Under the pieces are notes generated by a model. The model saw only the letters and a list, made by a program, of their open reading frames with translations. It searched no databases and was not told the DNA's origin. DNA of 30,656 nt from a virus: the IMG/VR virus record IMGVR_UViG_3300035698_008589, positions 1 to 30,656 of that record; one strand, given 5' to 3'. The translations under genes were made by a program, and so were the position numbers. Each line of letters begins with the position of its first letter. Position 1 is the stretch's first letter. Below are positions 1,198-18,607 of this stretch, one piece after another.

Positions 1198-2106
1198 CTA
1201 TTCATCCTCTAAATCAGCTTGAATTTCTTTCAACCATGCGTCATCGCCATCGTCGGCGTCACCTGGAGCAGGAGGCTCCATTACTGGCTTTCCAGTACTT
1301 TGAGATGCAGCAGCATCTACTTGATCATCACCCCAAGCAGGCGTATCATCCTGATGAGATGCAGCAGAATCTAATGCTAATACACGACTCAATTTACGCT
1401 GAAGTTCATCATAAGTCTTGAACTTGTCAGCAGAAACGTGATCTTCTAGTGAATACTGCTTACCCCAGATTTCCTCTATTTCAGAGTCATCTTCGGAGAT
1501 TGTAGATACACTATCAAATTCGCACTTATCGTAATTACGGTAACCTTCTACCTTACGAATCTTCATGCGGAAATTAACACCTTCCCAGAAGTCGAATGGA
1601 TCAATTGGAGACTCATCCTCAAACTCAGGATGTAGCTGGTCATTAATCTTATCGAAGATTTTTTTACCGAAGCGGAATAGGAAAACCTGCCCATCGTTTT
1701 CTGGCTTCTTAGGATCCTTAACTACAAGGATATTAGCGATATACTTTAACTTACGCTTCTGATCTCGTGCCTGTTGCTTTCCAGCTTCAGTACCATTATT
1801 CCAGAGACGATTGTTAAATTCACCAAGTGGGTCATCTGCACCAATTGTGCTCAATGAATTTTCGATGTACCATCCACCCGGTCCTTTAAATCCGTGTGAG
1901 AAAATACGCACCCAAGGAAGGTCTTCACCTTTTGGAGCAGGGAGGAATCGAATAATTGCAGAACCGTTTCCGGCTTCGTCAAGAGTGGGCTGCCAGAAGC
2001 GATCATCTTTTGATTTGCCTCCAGACTGCATCTTATTTGTTGCTTCGATAAGAGAATCGTAGCGGGACTTCTTGTTTTTCTTCATCTGAGCTAAACTGTT
2101 TGACAT
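1198..2106 (-). CDS. 32: Single-stranded DNA-binding protein gp32 (T4 family)
   Basis: This is the T4-type ssDNA-binding protein that coats the lagging-strand template and organises replication, recombination and repair. T4-family blocks are clear: a basic N-terminus with MKKNKKSR (the cooperativity region), then FLPAPKGEDLPWVRIFSHGFKG, GGWYIENS, YIANILVVKDPKKPENDG, VFLFRFGKKIFDKIND, DPFDFWEGVNFRMKI and GYRNYDKCEFD. The tail is very acidic (GDADDGDDAWLKEIQADLEDE region), matching the protein-interaction tail. At 302 aa it is the usual length. The three Cys that hold zinc in T4 gp32 (in WYIETCSST...CPVC) are replaced here; only the His of SHGF remains. A 111-base AT-rich leader precedes it, with TATAAT (minus strand, 2200-2195) but no good -35. 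Neighbours gp59 and gp33 support the call. Confidence 0.95.
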   Translation of the reverse strand: MSNSLAQMKKNKKSRYDSLIEATNKMQSGGKSKDDRFWQPTLDEAGNGSAIIRFLPAPKGEDLPWVRIFSHGFKGPGGWYIENSLSTIGADDPLGEFNNRLWNNGTEAGKQQARDQKRKLKYIANILVVKDPKKPENDGQVFLFRFGKKIFDKINDQLHPEFEDESPIDPFDFWEGVNFRMKIRKVEGYRNYDKCEFDSVSTISEDDSEIEEIWGKQYSLEDHVSADKFKTYDELQRKLSRVLALDSAASHQDDTPAWGDDQVDAAASQSTGKPVMEPPAPGDADDGDDAWLKEIQADLEDE

Positions 2107-2217: not shown

Positions 2218-2799
2218 TTAACATATAACTTTCTTTAAAAGCGTAACAAACCTCCTTCTATCAAGGCTTAAAAAGCCAAGATAATTTCGAATGAGATCTA
2301 TCTGCTCCGAAGAAAGTGGATCTATATGTTTGTGCTCCCAGCCATCAACGTAATGTATCACAACTTCCAAAGCACACATAGTATTTATGTGTATCCAGTT
2401 GAGCACAAACATCTTTAATAATGGCGGGTGTTGACTACCATCTGCTTTGAAGAGAGACGTGAATGACACATCATGTTCAGTCATGTACTCTTTAATCATA
2501 AGCAGATCCTGCTCGACGCGGTAACCTAGTGCTTTAGAAATTTTTCTCCATTCGAGATAAACCTCTTCACTAAAATTTCCAATCCAAGCAGATTGATCTT
2601 TCAGCAAATTCGCGAGAAGAAAATCTTGAACATTGTCAGTATATTTCTTTTCAATTTTCTGAAAGATGTACCGGTCATTTCTCTTGGCAAAACTTGCTTC
2701 AGATACTCTGACCTTACCTCGATATTTGAAGTAATTGTAATCTGTGGTGAAGTGTCTCTTTAATGCTAAATATTTACGGTACGTTTCAAAACCTTCCAT
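2218..2799 (-). CDS. 59: Loader of replicative helicase, gp59 family
   Basis: gp59 binds fork DNA and gp32 and loads the gp41 helicase. Family resemblance to T4 gp59 is strongest in the first 110 residues: a start with YRKYLALKRHF, then NYFKYRGKVRVSEASFAKRND, RYIFQKIEKKY, DFLLANLLKDQSAWIGNFS and KALGYRVEQDL. The T4 equivalents are KYNWCMRVSDAAYQKRRDKYFFQKL and NLVANQDAWIGD. The C-terminal half is helical and more diverged, ending LSLDRRRFVTLLKKVIC. The length (193 aa) is slightly below T4's 217. Its position between gp33 and gp32 is exactly that of T4. Confidence 0.9.
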   Translation of the reverse strand: MEGFETYRKYLALKRHFTTDYNYFKYRGKVRVSEASFAKRNDRYIFQKIEKKYTDNVQDFLLANLLKDQSAWIGNFSEEVYLEWRKISKALGYRVEQDLLMIKEYMTEHDVSFTSLFKADGSQHPPLLKMFVLNWIHINTMCALEVVIHYVDGWEHKHIDPLSSEQIDLIRNYLGFLSLDRRRFVTLLKKVIC

Positions 2800-2802
2800 A
2801 TT

Positions 2803-3024
2803 TTATATAGGCAGTCTTCCTCGTTTAGTGTTATCTTTTAGTAAACGATGATGTACCGCTTCCTCTTCAATACTCGCGAGAATTTTATCTGAAAGGAGTT
2901 CAGCACCCACTTCAATTTCTATGTTATTATCTCCGCAATGGTGGCATACTGCATCCATATACTCGAGACCTGTGACTTCCACAAGATTTTCAATGTCTCG
3001 TGAAAATGCTACTACATCTAGCAT
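2803..3024 (-). CDS. 33: Late-transcription co-activator gp33-like
   Basis: In T4, gp33 bridges host RNA polymerase and the sliding clamp for late transcription with sigma factor gp55. This 73-aa protein has the short-form pattern seen in cyanophage versions: a central EYMDAVCHHC followed by NNIEIEVGAELLSDKI, a helix with Glu and His, and a short basic tail (KRGRLPI). T4 gp33 is longer (112 aa), so the call rests on the short motif and on the conserved order rnh-33-59-32. It starts directly at the stop of the next gene upstream and ends three bases before gp59 begins. Confidence 0.65.
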   Translation of the reverse strand: MLDVVAFSRDIENLVEVTGLEYMDAVCHHCGDNNIEIEVGAELLSDKILASIEEEAVHHRLLKDNTKRGRLPI

Positions 3025-3468
3025 TCATGTTACCTCTTGATGTATGTTAGAAAAATTAGAATCTAAACTATTATATGTAGGGCGGAATCTATCTTGATCT
3101 GCGTACATCACAGCTTGGTCGTAATATTCTGGTGTATATGGTCCACCCCAATCCCAATTTTCACGAATGTAGGGAATACCCGTAGAATTTGCTACCATAA
3201 ATTCCATGAAAGCACCGTGGGAATCTTTCCACCCGTTCAGTTGATAGATGAAATTTGCGTTAAGCAACATAAGGAAATCAGCGTGAAGATGATTAAAGTA
3301 TTCATCTGTTTTCTCAACACCATTTCGATAAGGGTTGATCGTTTCCCAACCAAGGTTTATCAATGTTCTCTCTGCTTTTAAGAAAGCAGCTGTGTTGAAG
3401 TTTTCATAACCAGTCATTGGACCAGAAATGAAAATTTTCTTTACTTTACTTTTTGGTGGGGTATGCAT
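3025..3468 (-). CDS. DUF4406-family (nucleoside 2-deoxyribosyltransferase-like) protein
   Basis: The N-terminus KKIFISGPMTGYENFN followed by FLKAERTLINLGWETINPYRN is the hallmark of the DUF4406 / nucleoside 2-deoxyribosyltransferase-like fold, a Rossmann-like domain that in related enzymes handles nucleosides or nucleotide sugars. The later DFLMLLNANFIYQLNGWKDSHGAFMEFMVA block matches the usual 'decide which compartment it belongs to' region of the family, including the acidic residue in the helix. The substrate is unknown. I chose the ATG at 3468 because the fold begins just after it; the longer frame to 3591 would lie inside the wall-hydrolase gene. Overlap with that gene is 23 bases. Confidence 0.75.
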   Translation of the reverse strand: MHTPPKSKVKKIFISGPMTGYENFNTAAFLKAERTLINLGWETINPYRNGVEKTDEYFNHLHADFLMLLNANFIYQLNGWKDSHGAFMEFMVANSTGIPYIRENWDWGGPYTPEYYDQAVMYADQDRFRPTYNSLDSNFSNIHQEVT

Positions 3469-3826
3469 AAAAATTATGTCCTCCAATTTTCTTGATAAAA
3501 GGATATCTCCACTTACGTGAATGTAAACCTTTAAAGAACACTGCATTTGGGACTGGGTTTTCAACAGTCCCATCCAGTATTTGGCGAGCAACTACTTTAG
3601 ATTTTCCCCAAAGTTTACCTTTCCTGTGTGAATAATCATCCATCTGACAAACCCAAGAGAACTGACATTTTTGAAATACTACCTTACAGATAGTGTCTGG
3701 GAACTTAGGATGATCTTTGCGATTTTTGACAACATACCCTACCGCGTGTTGCCCGAGTTCTGATTCTCCTCGGGCTTCACGATAGATAACAATTGCCATA
3801 CAGTCAATAGGTTGAACATAATCCAT
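3446..3826 (-). CDS. Cell-wall hydrolase, SleB/Hydrolase_2 family
   Basis: The 126-aa protein is essentially one SleB-type domain. It shows AIVIYREARGESELGQHAVGYVV, then KNRKDHPKFPDTICKVVFQ and CQFSW, the family signature; the Glu of YREARGE is the likely catalytic acid. The domain ends near FKGLHSRKWRYPFIKKIGGHNFY. Members are lytic transglycosylase/amidase-like enzymes acting on peptidoglycan. No signal peptide or membrane segment is visible, so if it is the endolysin it would need a holin or another route out. It could instead be a virion-associated lysozyme. Confidence 0.85.
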   Translation of the reverse strand: MDYVQPIDCMAIVIYREARGESELGQHAVGYVVKNRKDHPKFPDTICKVVFQKCQFSWVCQMDDYSHRKGKLWGKSKVVARQILDGTVENPVPNAVFFKGLHSRKWRYPFIKKIGGHNFYAYPTKK

Positions 3827-4284: not shown

Positions 4285-4570
4285 AAATAGCCCGTTGGTT
4301 AATAAGGTGGGCCAGACCCCAGAAAGCTTTAAGCAGCCAGAGCTACCTTATCGCTAGGAGTGACTGCCTGAGCAGCCATCTGTGCGAAACCTTCGATCAT
4401 TGCATTTGTGTTTACAATTATTTGTTTTGCGAGGATTACGTCCTTCACCTTTCGGATAGCTCTAACGCCTTTGTACATCCAGTCGAAACCTTGTCGTCCC
4501 CATTGATGTGGAAACGCCGGGAATCGAACCCGGGTCCTGAAGCCTCTAGATATAGAGTTTACTATCATTC
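4285..4570 (-). ncRNA. ssrA: Circularly permuted (two-piece) tmRNA
   Basis: Reading the minus strand, the gene order is permuted. First comes a T-arm (stem CCGGG/CCCGG, loop TTCGATT, 4533-4517), then the 3' acceptor strand CGTTTCC (4516-4510) and A at 4509. A 7-nt intervening segment (4508-4502) follows, then the 5' acceptor strand GGGGACG (4501-4495), continuing ACAAGGTTTCGACTGG. That last block matches the conserved tmRNA 5' end (GGGG...GGNTTCGAC.GG). The two acceptor strands pair over 7 bp with two G-U pairs. CTGGA downstream of the D-like region can pair with TTCAG before the T-arm, as helix P2 would. A tag frame ending in ALAA-stop follows at 4415-4329. CCA is not encoded. The outer ends are estimates: an acceptor piece beginning near 4570 and a coding piece ending near 4285, after a possible GCCC/GGGC hairpin. 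The processed RNA would be two pieces held by base pairing. Confidence 0.88.
4329..4415 (-). other. tmRNA proteolysis-tag reading frame
   Basis: Downstream of the tmRNA 5' end, the sequence AATAATT-GTA-AAC aligns with the bacterial resume context (…TAGTC-GCA-AAC in E. coli). If GTA at 4415-4413 is the resume codon, the frame encodes 28 residues beginning VNTNAMIEG and ending SDKVALAA before TAA at 4331-4329. The ALAA end is the ClpXP-recognised end of many proteobacterial tags. This frame is not an independent gene: it has no start codon or ribosome site, and the longer open frame it sits in runs through the tRNA-like domain. Confidence 0.75.
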
Positions 4571-4748
4571 AAATATCTTTATATAACTTTTCTATTACTC
4601 TCCGAAGAGAAATAATATGATGTCGGATATCTTCCTTGAGTTCCTCTGATACTTTGTCAGTATTCTGGACGTCGTAATGTAGATCTTCTAATCCAGATAG
4701 ATACCGTTTTTCCATAAAACATCGTTCGGCATTTACTTGTACTATCAT
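4569..4748 (-). CDS. Small hypothetical protein, 59 aa
   Basis: ATG at 4748 with AAGGTGG about nine bases upstream; TGA at 4571-4569. The protein is charged and helical (MEKRYLSGLEDL, EELKEDIRHHIISLRRVIEKL), possibly coiled-coil. Its stop coincides with the estimated start of the tmRNA acceptor piece, so the two may share a transcript. Function unknown. Confidence 0.6.
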   Translation of the reverse strand: MIVQVNAERCFMEKRYLSGLEDLHYDVQNTDKVSEELKEDIRHHIISLRRVIEKLYKDI

Positions 4749-4913: not shown

Positions 4914-5305
4914 TGGGTCTGCTTAGAAGGAACTACTTCTTTACCGTAAAGGTGATGGCGACCATGGGCCATAGCACACGCATATCCATCTGCAGGATTA
5001 TGAAATACAATGTGTAAAGTACTCCGATCAATTGGAAAGTAGAATTCTGCGGACTGTCCAGAATCTCGAACCATTTCTTGATTACCTTTTATAACACCAT
5101 GTTTTCGAAAAAGGAATTCTACAAGTTGATCATGAGGACCACACAAAGCTTCAACTACTGTGTTCATTGTTACTAATCTATCTGGAGCTCCATATGGTTT
5201 TGGTGTAGTGGTTTGCGCATTTGCTGCCACACTCAAAAAGAAGAGTGTAACTATAAACATAAACACATTAAGCATATTACGAAAGCCGGGATGTGAAGAA
5301 TTCAT
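4910..5305 (-). CDS. Secreted hypothetical protein with signal peptide
   Basis: The N-terminus carries a clear signal peptide (MLNVFMFIVTLFFLSVAANA, cleavage before QTTTP). The mature part of about 100 residues contains two or three Cys (ALCGPHDQ, GYACAMAHG) and a His-rich end (AHGRHHLYG). I do not recognise a family. The ATG at 5305 adds ten residues before the hydrophobic region and overlaps the nuclease gene by 29 bases; the ATG at 5275 is an alternative. It is coupled to the small lipoprotein, so the two may act together at the envelope. Confidence 0.7.
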   Translation of the reverse strand: MNSSHPGFRNMLNVFMFIVTLFFLSVAANAQTTTPKPYGAPDRLVTMNTVVEALCGPHDQLVEFLFRKHGVIKGNQEMVRDSGQSAEFYFPIDRSTLHIVFHNPADGYACAMAHGRHHLYGKEVVPSKQTQ

Positions 5306-5927
5306 GATTTTTCATCTCTTGTGGATTGTTGATAAAGACCTGTGGAGAAGGATCTTCAACCACAGCAATAAGGATTACGTTTTGTGTAACCTTAACCCCA
5401 TAGACTTCTTCAATCATTAAAGAGTAAGCGGTGGTTTGGAGAAAATAATCTTGTATCCATTCCAATCTCTTAGGCTTAATAGAATTTTTGAAGTCTACTG
5501 TAGACAGTACGCTTGACCAATTTGTTAACAGATCAATTCGTCCTGCCAAATTATATTTGTGTGACCACAAAGGTGCTTCTTGAAGAAACACTTCACCTAC
5601 ATTATCATCAATGATAGGTTTAACCTGCTTAAAAAGCTCAAAGCAAGTAGGTGTAATCTTTCCTACATCAGTGCTCTTGATAAGATACTTTTCAAGCAAA
5701 TCGTGAAGCTGATGTCCTCTGTTGCGTGCTACATTTGAGATACGATCAGCTTCCTCGTATCCTATACGTTTACGCCATTCTTCAAGTGATACTTTTTTCT
5801 CTGGATAAAATTCCGAAAGTGCTTTGCTTACTGAGGGTAGACGGATGCCTTCTGGAGTGTTATAATACACTCCGTTTTTTCTGCCAACTGCATCATCGCG
5901 TCTTTCAAATTTAGGTAACGACATCAT
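5277..5927 (-). CDS. PD-(D/E)XK exonuclease (RecB/Cas4-like)
   Basis: The nuclease core is visible: RGHQLHDLLEKY (H72 region), LAGRIDLL with D132, VDFKNS with D145 and K147 forming the D...(D/E)xK centre, and QTTAYSLMIEEVYG with Q164 and Y168, the RecB-type QxxxY motif. At 216 aa it is a single-domain enzyme. Related genes in T4-like cyanophages are annotated as exonucleases and probably process DNA ends in recombination or degrade host DNA. The start overlaps the previous stop by one base; a second ATG follows at once at 5924. Confidence 0.85.
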   Translation of the reverse strand: MMSLPKFERRDDAVGRKNGVYYNTPEGIRLPSVSKALSEFYPEKKVSLEEWRKRIGYEEADRISNVARNRGHQLHDLLEKYLIKSTDVGKITPTCFELFKQVKPIIDDNVGEVFLQEAPLWSHKYNLAGRIDLLTNWSSVLSTVDFKNSIKPKRLEWIQDYFLQTTAYSLMIEEVYGVKVTQNVILIAVVEDPSPQVFINNPQEMKNHEFFTSRLS

Positions 5928-8318: not shown

Positions 8319-8788
8319 GCGGCGGTATCCGGGTCAAAGTCATCGGGTTCAAGATCATCAAGTCCTAAGTGTAAAGTGATTGGATCAAAGTCACCCATAT
8401 CCTCTGCACCAAGAGCAATCAATTCTTTGTTTTCCATCCTTAGCGCTAAGGCTTTTTGAAGGTTACCAAGGAGCTCAGCAAATTGATGATCATATCCACG
8501 TGAAGTAATAAACGCAGCGATTACCATTTCCAAAGCAACCGCTAATTTTTGGGATGTTTCTATCTTCGCAATATCGTCACCCAAACCGATATTAACGAGG
8601 GACATTACAAAATACTGATAGCATTGTCCACATTGCGTTCGAAGCTTATTCAATTCTTCTACTGTATCAAGGTCAGAACTCAAGTGTTCAAAAATTCCAA
8701 CTGTGGGAATTCTGATACGCTCAGAAGGATCTGCTTCTAAGTGATACATACGTCGTTTGGTTTTGAAGTCAAAAACTTGTGCAGTCAT
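8315..8788 (-). CDS. Hypothetical helical protein, 157 aa
   Basis: The protein opens MTAQVFDFKTKRRMYHLEAD and has a helical middle with two Cys in QCGQCYQYF, ending in a very acidic tail (DLEPDDFDPDTAA). I do not recognise it. It overlaps both ligase and RNase H by four bases (ATGA type), so it belongs to the replication operon and may interact with those enzymes; that is inference from position only. Confidence 0.65.
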   Translation of the reverse strand: MTAQVFDFKTKRRMYHLEADPSERIRIPTVGIFEHLSSDLDTVEELNKLRTQCGQCYQYFVMSLVNIGLGDDIAKIETSQKLAVALEMVIAAFITSRGYDHQFAELLGNLQKALALRMENKELIALGAEDMGDFDPITLHLGLDDLEPDDFDPDTAA

Positions 8789-9975
8789 AGTCGGGGTTCC
8801 TCATGAAGAGCGATTGCAACTGGGAAACGAGGTACACCATATTTGCTATACTCTTGGAAGCGAATGGTAGCTTCTTTCCCGATGAACAAATGCTTATTTT
8901 CAAGGATATACTTAGCGCGCTCTTTATTACCGCGCATCCCAGATTTGCATGTTTCATTGGAGTTAAGTTTAATAATCAGATGCTTTGCTACACCGGCCCA
9001 ATTACCTTTACCCTCAAGGATATCAATGATTTCAAATTCGTCATCCATAAACTCCTTTCTCTTAAGGAGATCTACAGAGCGACTGTGCTTATATTGACTG
9101 CCATAGATGCGAATCATTTGACCTTCAAATCCATCTGTACGGTAACCCAAGTAAATGTCATCAAGTTCTTCTTGTGTTTCCGCGTGTAGTGTTTGCACAT
9201 ATTCAAGCATGTGACAATCAAAGAGATGGGGCTGCTCAAAGATATCTCTCAGATGTCCTTGGCGTTCTTCCAAGATTGCAATGTCACCAGCAGTAGAAGT
9301 GCAATCGTAAATGTGAAACTCAACAGCTAATGCAGAATCATCAAGATCCTCTTTAGTTGGTTTCGTTTTACGAATGAGAGAAACAAGATCTTCAAAGTTA
9401 TCACGATACGCGTGATTATAAAGTTCTCCATCGTAAGTTGATACGCCAGGATACTCATCAAAGATAGGCTCTAGTGATTGCAGAACATGAGGAATAGTAA
9501 AATGCTGTGTACCGTTACGGGTCATTGCGATCAGCTTACCGATTTCATTCTTACCAGTGTATGGATTGAAAGTAGCAATCTGATCGATGTTACGCGAAAC
9601 ACTACAGCGGATACCGTCAAGCTTCGGCTGCGAAGCAACAGGGAATTTAAGTACTTTGTTTTTGGCAGTATACCGTTTGGTATAATCATGCGCTAGCATT
9701 GGCTTAAAGTAAGTTACAACATCAACATCATCGATTGAAGCAAAATATTTCTTACGAAGCTTCAGTGTGTATTTGGAATCTACCTCAGCTTGTGCCTGCT
9801 CAGAAGGTGTAGTTTCATTTGCTTTGCCAATGTTCATTCCGGCAGCAACCACCCACCCAGACACAGCTTGCTTACCACTGACCAAACCAGAGATAGTGCG
9901 GTATGCGTTATCTTCTACTTCCATGCGCCACATGCGTAGTCGGCCTTTACTATCACGGTGATAAAGATTGTTCAT
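8785..9975 (-). CDS. ATP-dependent DNA ligase
   Basis: Joins Okazaki fragments and nicks using ATP. Nucleotidyltransferase motifs are in order: motif I SQPKLDGIRC with Lys118 as the AMP-attachment residue, motif III STYDGELYNH, motif IV DGFEGQMIRI, and motif V VDLLKRKEFMDDEFEI. An OB-type end follows, with FIGKEATIRFQEYSKYGVPRFPV. About 75 N-terminal residues (LYHRDSKGRLRMWRMEVED, SGLVSGKQAVSGW, NIGKANETTPSEQAQAEV) form the WGR-like extension common in phage ligases. The length (396 aa) is normal. AAGGA precedes the ATG at 9975. It heads the replication-enzyme run. Confidence 0.93.
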   Translation of the reverse strand: MNNLYHRDSKGRLRMWRMEVEDNAYRTISGLVSGKQAVSGWVVAAGMNIGKANETTPSEQAQAEVDSKYTLKLRKKYFASIDDVDVVTYFKPMLAHDYTKRYTAKNKVLKFPVASQPKLDGIRCSVSRNIDQIATFNPYTGKNEIGKLIAMTRNGTQHFTIPHVLQSLEPIFDEYPGVSTYDGELYNHAYRDNFEDLVSLIRKTKPTKEDLDDSALAVEFHIYDCTSTAGDIAILEERQGHLRDIFEQPHLFDCHMLEYVQTLHAETQEELDDIYLGYRTDGFEGQMIRIYGSQYKHSRSVDLLKRKEFMDDEFEIIDILEGKGNWAGVAKHLIIKLNSNETCKSGMRGNKERAKYILENKHLFIGKEATIRFQEYSKYGVPRFPVAIALHEEPRL

Positions 9976-18284: not shown

Positions 18285-18445
18285 AAGTTTACGTATTGAT
18301 GAATGGAGCGGAAGCAGAAGTTGTGGGTATTTACTCTTCACGCCTCGCAGCAAATGAAGCTCTTTGCCGAGGCTCCGCTGATGGAGAGCTCGATCGCGTT
18401 GAGTGTTACATCAATATGCATGTAGTTGAGAATCTTAAGAAGTAA
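18281..18445 (+). CDS. Small hypothetical protein, 54 aa
   Basis: ATG at 18,281 overlaps the preceding stop; TAA at 18,443-18,445. It reads MKVYVLMNGAEAEVVGIYSS, then RLAANEALCRGSADGEL and ends MHVVENLKK: strand-helix-strand, like many small phage proteins of the type 'YVL..G....VVGIYSS...A'. That pattern is common in hypothetical proteins that report or bind a small ligand, but I assign no function. It is followed by the third motif copy. Confidence 0.65.
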   Translation: MKVYVLMNGAEAEVVGIYSSRLAANEALCRGSADGELDRVECYINMHVVENLKK

Positions 18446-18450
18446 CACCC

Positions 18451-18465
18451 ACCGCGCGGTTGCAC
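18451..18465 (+). repeat. Intergenic motif copy 3 (ACCGCGCGGTTGCAC)
   Basis: Five bases after the TAA at 18,445. The core ACCGCGCGGT is a perfect palindrome here, imperfect in copies 1 and 2; GCGGTTGCAC is shared with copy 1 and CGGTTGCAC with both. Confidence 0.6.
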
Positions 18466-18485
18466 TCGACTTAGAGACTAAGGCA

Positions 18486-18523
18486 ATTGTACACTTAGCG
18501 AAGGCGGCAAATAAGTGTACAAT
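18486..18523 (+). terminator. 12-bp inverted repeat: terminator or operator
   Basis: ATTGTACACTTA (18,486-18,497) and TAAGTGTACAAT (18,512-18,523) form a perfect 12-bp stem with a 14-base loop, followed by CTCTTT. It closes the GC-rich cassette and precedes a TATAAT box, so it may end that cassette or act as an operator for the next promoter. TAAGTG is also the core word of the iterons. Confidence 0.5.
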
Positions 18524-18564
18524 CTCTTTACAATTTAAAGGTGTACTTCCGAAGCGGTAAGGTT

Positions 18565-18570
18565 TATAAT
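18565..18570 (+). promoter_or_regulatory. Perfect -10 box (TATAAT), weak -35
   Basis: TATAAT stands 38 bases before the ATG at 18,608. The expected -35 position holds only TGTACT. Position after a likely terminator and before a new gene run supports promoter use; the weak -35 suggests an activator. Confidence 0.4.
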
Positions 18571-18607
18571 GGAACCTTAATCACTGATAAGTAACAAGGT
18601 AGATAGG

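Follow-up and report, generated by a model that had tools for sequence, protein, structure and literature searches.

We examined a linear IMG/VR virus contig of 30,656 bases, which in its full length is referred to here as the window. Its PHROG matches include the single-strand binding protein gp32 (1198-2106, minus strand; PHROG 224, E 2e-110), the helicase loader gp59 (2218-2799, minus strand; PHROG 269) and a gp33-like late-transcription co-activator (2803-3024, minus strand; PHROG 254, E 8.7e-14), and we therefore regard the contig as belonging to a T4-like phage. Further matches were found to an endolysin-like cell-wall hydrolase (3446-3826), an exonuclease (5277-5927, minus strand; PHROG 298), an ATP-dependent DNA ligase (8785-9975), a glycosyltransferase and a UDP-glucose dehydrogenase. 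Among named phages, gp32 is nearest to cyanophage proteins (about 56%), gp59 reaches its highest INPHARED identity with phage Melnitz (38.9%), and the UDP-glucose dehydrogenase is nearest to that of Pelagibacter phage HTVC008M (54.7%). Gene direction appears to flip at ~18,400-18,600, the recognised genes lying on the minus strand up to this region and on the plus strand beyond it.

Downstream of the exonuclease and upstream of gp33, gp59 and gp32, in that order and on the same strand, lies a permuted tmRNA gene (minus strand, about 4566-4288 from the upstream end of P2 to the downstream end of a pseudoknot). tmRNA releases ribosomes that have become stuck and adds a degradation tag to the incomplete proteins they carry. 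Read 5' to 3' on the minus strand, the gene opens with the 5' strand of the P2 helix (GATAG, 4562-4566, or GATAGT if extended to 4561), followed by GGAC (4537-4534) and a 5-bp T-arm (CCGGG 4533-4529 and CCCGG 4521-4517, loop TTCGATT; 4517-4537 with GGAC). The 3' acceptor strand CGTTTCC (4516-4510) and discriminator A73 (4509) come next (4509-4516 together), and CCA is not encoded. A 7-nt intervening segment, CATCAAT (4502-4508), which would be removed on processing, separates A73 from the 5' acceptor strand GGGGACG (4495-4501). Then follow the conserved GGTTTCGAC of the tRNA-like domain (4482-4490), the 3' strand of P2 (CTATC, 4455-4459), the motif TAATT-GTA-AAC, a tag reading frame (4329-4415) and an H-type pseudoknot (4288-4321). 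The P2 strands were placed by alignment to RF04321 and a set-wide permutation test, and the tag frame by ARAGORN and alignment with relatives. The 3' tRNA-like segment is thus encoded upstream of the 5' segment, with A73 at 4509, G1 at 4501 and 7 nt between them. The original prediction, which named the T-arm, CGTTTCC, A, 7-nt spacer, GGGGACG, GGTTTCGAC and a tag frame ending in ALAA-stop, is borne out for all of these elements, and its positions 4501 and 4509 are correct to the base. It also described a 7-bp acceptor with two G-U pairs, as is the case; one of them is G3·U70 (4499 and 4512). G3·U70 is the alanine identity pair, and both it and A73 are present in the window. A short AC-rich repeat (ACACACAACACACACACAACACA) occupies 4275-4258, between the tmRNA and the next small ORF.

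The central claim of that prediction, a phage-encoded permuted tmRNA, was upheld by covariance models and by an independent program. RF04321 (tmRNA_permuted) gave a full-length match at 4566-4329 of 113.3 bits (E 1.2e-21; Rfam gathering cut-off 47). Of the three type-specific models proposed as a check, beta_tmRNA (RF01850) scored highest, likewise as a full-length match (95 bits, E 7.5e-28; cut-off 84), alpha_tmRNA was barely above its cut-off (51.1 against 50 bits), and the cyano_tmRNA cut-off of 70 was not reached by the window (41.6 bits). Independently of Rfam, ARAGORN labelled the tmRNA gene that it placed at c[4238,4598] 'Permuted' and gave its tag as VNTNAMIEGFAQMAAQAVTPSDKVALAA. The tmRNA match is far above chance level. 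In the beta alignment the model's 3' portion falls on a hairpin (ending at 4357) that lies within the long tag frame, and the pseudoknot follows the tag; where the beta model has a 3' hairpin, the post-tag element in the window is instead a pseudoknot, as in other phage copies.

This pseudoknot consists of S1 (4321-4316/4308-4303, UGGGGU/ACCUUA) and S2 (4314-4309/4293-4288, UGGCCC/GGGCUA) and scores 25.5, against 20.5 for the best of 20 dinucleotide shuffles, a measure by which some individual copies do not exceed their own shuffles. An H-type shape follows the tag stop in most phage copies examined, with S2 letters that are unrelated yet complementary, such as CCGACUU/AAGUCGG (L127), GGUGGGU/ACCCACC (L133) and UGGGGAGC/GCUCCCCA (L146); a simple pseudoknot search found different best helices in L121, L006, L033 and L108. 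Judged from these sequences, S2 of the post-tag pseudoknot covaries across phages. P2 complementarity was likewise greater within than between sequences, a level of pairing reached by 130/20,000 permutations in the T4-like set and 13/20,000 in a larger set. Folding the two pieces together, as had been suggested, did not recover the canonical fold by free energy alone. The best free fold had -89.6 kcal/mol, and enforcing the canonical pairs gave -80.1. The interaction energy between the two pieces (-9.8) lay inside the shuffle range (-7.5 ± 3.6), so that energy folding is not decisive.

The tmRNAs of the mycobacteriophage Bxz1 group and Bacillus phage G are one-piece, and compared with these the window gene is circularly permuted. 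Phage-encoded ssrA has been described in both (PMC4131195), and the original prediction took the permuted order as a departure from phage tmRNAs known only in one piece. This part did not hold, since phage-encoded permuted tmRNAs were already published: the study that described a two-piece tmRNA in Methylophilales phage Melnitz (MZ577097; host group OM43) also counted 53 two-piece genes called by ARAGORN among tmRNA-bearing phages, of which 50 came from marine or aquatic environments (PMC9004378, 2022), and a later study introduced a merged permuted model and a database listing 79 unique phage tmRNA sequences (PMC11915505, 2025); permuted sequences in the tmRNA database number 11,946. The notion of exclusively one-piece phage tmRNAs is thereby corrected. 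In IMG/VR, a generic permuted signature matched 111 stretches, a few of which are something else, either chance matches or a tRNA lying next to a one-piece tmRNA. We parsed 75 distinct copies, comprising the signature matches minus duplicates, plus gp32 relatives and Melnitz. All 75, the window included, have a 7-bp acceptor with G3·U70, a count in which full 7/7 pairing is slightly favoured by construction because parsing chose the best-pairing 5' strand. Two-piece tmRNA genes are common in aquatic T4-like phages. The intervening segment is ≤7 nt in 40/75 distinct viral copies and CCA is not encoded in 43/75, and on both counts the window is therefore ordinary; its 7-nt segment, called very short beforehand, is literally so and not unusual.

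The closest described system is Melnitz, which shares with the window a permuted tmRNA in a T4-like phage, the order PDDEXK exonuclease, tmRNA, gp33, gp59 and gp32, G3·U70 and a post-tag pseudoknot. In full, Melnitz has a PDDEXK nuclease followed by two small genes, the tmRNA, gp33, gp59 and, further on, gp32, on one strand except for one short ORF. The two genes differ in their intervening segment (145 nt with CCA encoded in Melnitz, 7 nt without CCA in the window), in their tag (ANDNYVPVDYALAA in Melnitz, 28 residues in the window) and in their best type-specific model, as Melnitz matches RF04321 and, best among types, alpha_tmRNA, whereas the window scores best with beta_tmRNA. A glutamine riboswitch match overlaps the 3' end of the Melnitz tmRNA, whereas a search of the window with RF01739 gave no match; this riboswitch has been described as common beside the tmRNA, not defining (PMC9004378). 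Cyanophage-type IMG/VR copies (e.g. L034, L055) resemble the window in having a very short segment (4-6 nt) and no encoded CCA, but their tags are cyanobacterial (ANNIVSFSRQ...) and the window falls below the cyano_tmRNA cut-off. Direct searches returned little: blastn of the window tmRNA and megablast with 24 kb of the window found no match in INPHARED and no match, respectively, and the window's own 23-nt tRNA-like start was absent from IMG/VR in an exact search. A related-locus search seeded with the exonuclease found nothing, one seeded with gp59 found one weak locus, and a plasmid search gave a single weak match at chance level. Among named phages the exonuclease was best matched by that of C48C1, next to which no tmRNA is annotated.

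Upstream of the gene, a -10-like box (TATAAAGA, 4576-4583, minus strand) lies 46 nt from the T-arm GGAC and is a putative promoter; a clear -35 box was not seen in the window at this region. In 11 of 16 T4-like phage tmRNAs the best TATAAATA-like match falls 42-47 nt before GGAC, and several relatives carry TTGACA-17 nt-TATAAT-like promoters at the same place. Sequence comparison of this kind suggests that the tmRNA may be transcribed from its own promoter, which keeps a constant position. The promoter of the Melnitz tmRNA was called early (PMC9004378). The TATAAATA-like boxes (L121-L186, L196 and the window) resemble T4 late promoters and sometimes stand beside sigma-70-type boxes. Their fixed place had prompted us to consider a dedicated T4-type late promoter, which we did not adopt given the TTGACA-17 nt-TATAAT-like promoters of several relatives.

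The tag frame is what sets this gene apart. Resumption is predicted at UAAUU-GUA-AAC, where GUA is the codon after the conserved upstream motif, and the frame (VNTNAMIEGFAQMAAQAVTPSDKVALAA-stop) ends in the hydrophobic VALAA. The tag is 28 residues long versus 9-14 in other phages at the same locus, and among the 75 parsed copies only one cyano-type copy (28) and L008 (31) have tags of ≥28 residues besides the window. Its first residue is Val, the only one among the distinct copies (Ala 65, Gly 7, Asp 2, Val 1). Individual to the window gene is thus the combination of a 28-residue tag and a Val resume codon. L008 (IMGVR_UViG_3300022719_000329, a 295,848-base viral contig) has its permuted tmRNA on the minus strand at ~305, with the 31-residue tag DNSSLMSYAKALHVRELSEKETLVEAEAIAA. 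A stable hairpin lies inside the window tag frame (GGCUGCUCAGGCAGUC region), a GCA four codons past GUA could serve as an alternative resume codon, and GUA itself could reflect a sequencing error. We consider it quite unlikely that the long tag, Val resume codon and internal hairpin represent a selected change and that the long tag acts unlike the usual degradation tag; if this were true, the phage would reprogramme the fate of rescued proteins, through another choice of protease or adaptor or through slower turnover.

The original prediction held that the phage had probably acquired the gene from a host with a permuted gene. Whether it was inherited or captured can be approached through its locus and its divergence. 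Among loci reaching both sides, nine IMG/VR contigs (L082, L124, L133, L142, L146, L153, L171, L180, L186) and Melnitz share the order exonuclease, tmRNA, gp33 and/or gp59, gp32, as well as the strand arrangement. Pairwise tmRNA and gp32 distances in 14 phages were correlated (Mantel r 0.71, 0/5000 permutations), with r falling to 0.40 when close pairs were excluded. Because the locus is conserved and divergence tracks gp32, the tmRNA looks mostly inherited in this phage lineage and not recently acquired. These comparisons favour long inheritance within phages over frequent recent capture, and phage-to-phage replacement may also have occurred. The tmRNA is probably dispensable, since most IMG/VR gp32 relatives show none: RF04321 was above cut-off in 15 of the 50 records found via gp32, with many of the others being short fragments. 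At the same T4-like locus (the window, L121-L186 and L196), tmRNAs score best with the alpha model in some phages and with the beta model in others.

A working permuted tmRNA recently taken from the present host would be compatible with the mechanism proposed below and could explain why the best type-specific score is that of the betaproteobacterial model, yet the Melnitz gene, which occupies the same locus, is alphaproteobacterial by score. We regard this origin as unlikely, as the locus is conserved across divergent phages, tmRNA distance correlates with gp32 distance and the pseudoknot is common to other phages at the locus. Two donor scans of 84,980 genomes of bacteria and archaea moreover gave no match, each with a pattern so strict that a donor may still exist.

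The window gene is a real, probably working, phage-encoded two-piece tmRNA. Its sequence shows the gene order, the acceptor with G3·U70, the T-arm, P2, the tag frame and the post-tag pseudoknot, and so carries each hallmark of a functional copy for which sequence can be checked, and we consider it very likely that this circularly permuted tmRNA of a T4-like phage works as follows. From established tmRNA biology we infer the steps of processing, charging, tagging and degradation. Transcription would start just upstream of the gene (box at 4583-4576); RNase P would cleave before G1 (4501), and 3' processing would trim to A73 (4509), whereby the 7-nt segment would be lost. CCA would then be added to the A73 end, and the two pieces would be held together via the acceptor and P2. 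Once charged by host AlaRS, the two-piece RNA would be delivered by host SmpB to ribosomes that have stalled on broken mRNA. Dependence on host SmpB is expected because no SmpB gene was found on the window contig or in 17 related records, the complete Melnitz included. Translation would resume at GUA (4415), add the tag ending in VALAA and stop at UAA (4331-4329); Clp proteases of the host would then take over the tagged protein. The phage would likely benefit in that ribosomes are kept free during host mRNA degradation.

The missing phage SmpB would also suit a different role, in which the phage RNA is a decoy that, by binding SmpB or AlaRS of the host, dampens trans-translation there. There is precedent in the inhibitory phage tmRNA fragment of mycobacteriophage DS6A, an RNA with only the tRNA-like domain (PMC4131195, PMC11915505). 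We hold this to be very unlikely for the window gene, which retains both the conserved pseudoknot and a complete tag frame ending in a degradation-type sequence, neither of them needed by a decoy. Least probable is that a captured tmRNA was kept for a time as a decayed passenger without useful tagging, for while its tag length against the 9-14 residues at this locus, its sole Val start and an alpha_tmRNA score below most relatives might be read as marks of decay, G3·U70, A73, T-arm, P2, the open VALAA tag frame and the pseudoknot are all intact, and the unencoded CCA is shared with other viral copies.

Returning to the working two-piece tmRNA, the window gene is a well-supported added case, with an odd tag, in a little-studied group of aquatic T4-like phages with two-piece tmRNA. 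The 75 copies, their fixed T4-like place, the covarying pseudoknot and the co-divergence with gp32 suggest a maintained phage gene and not a stray host fragment. If so, the role of trans-translation for a lytic phage becomes testable by comparison.
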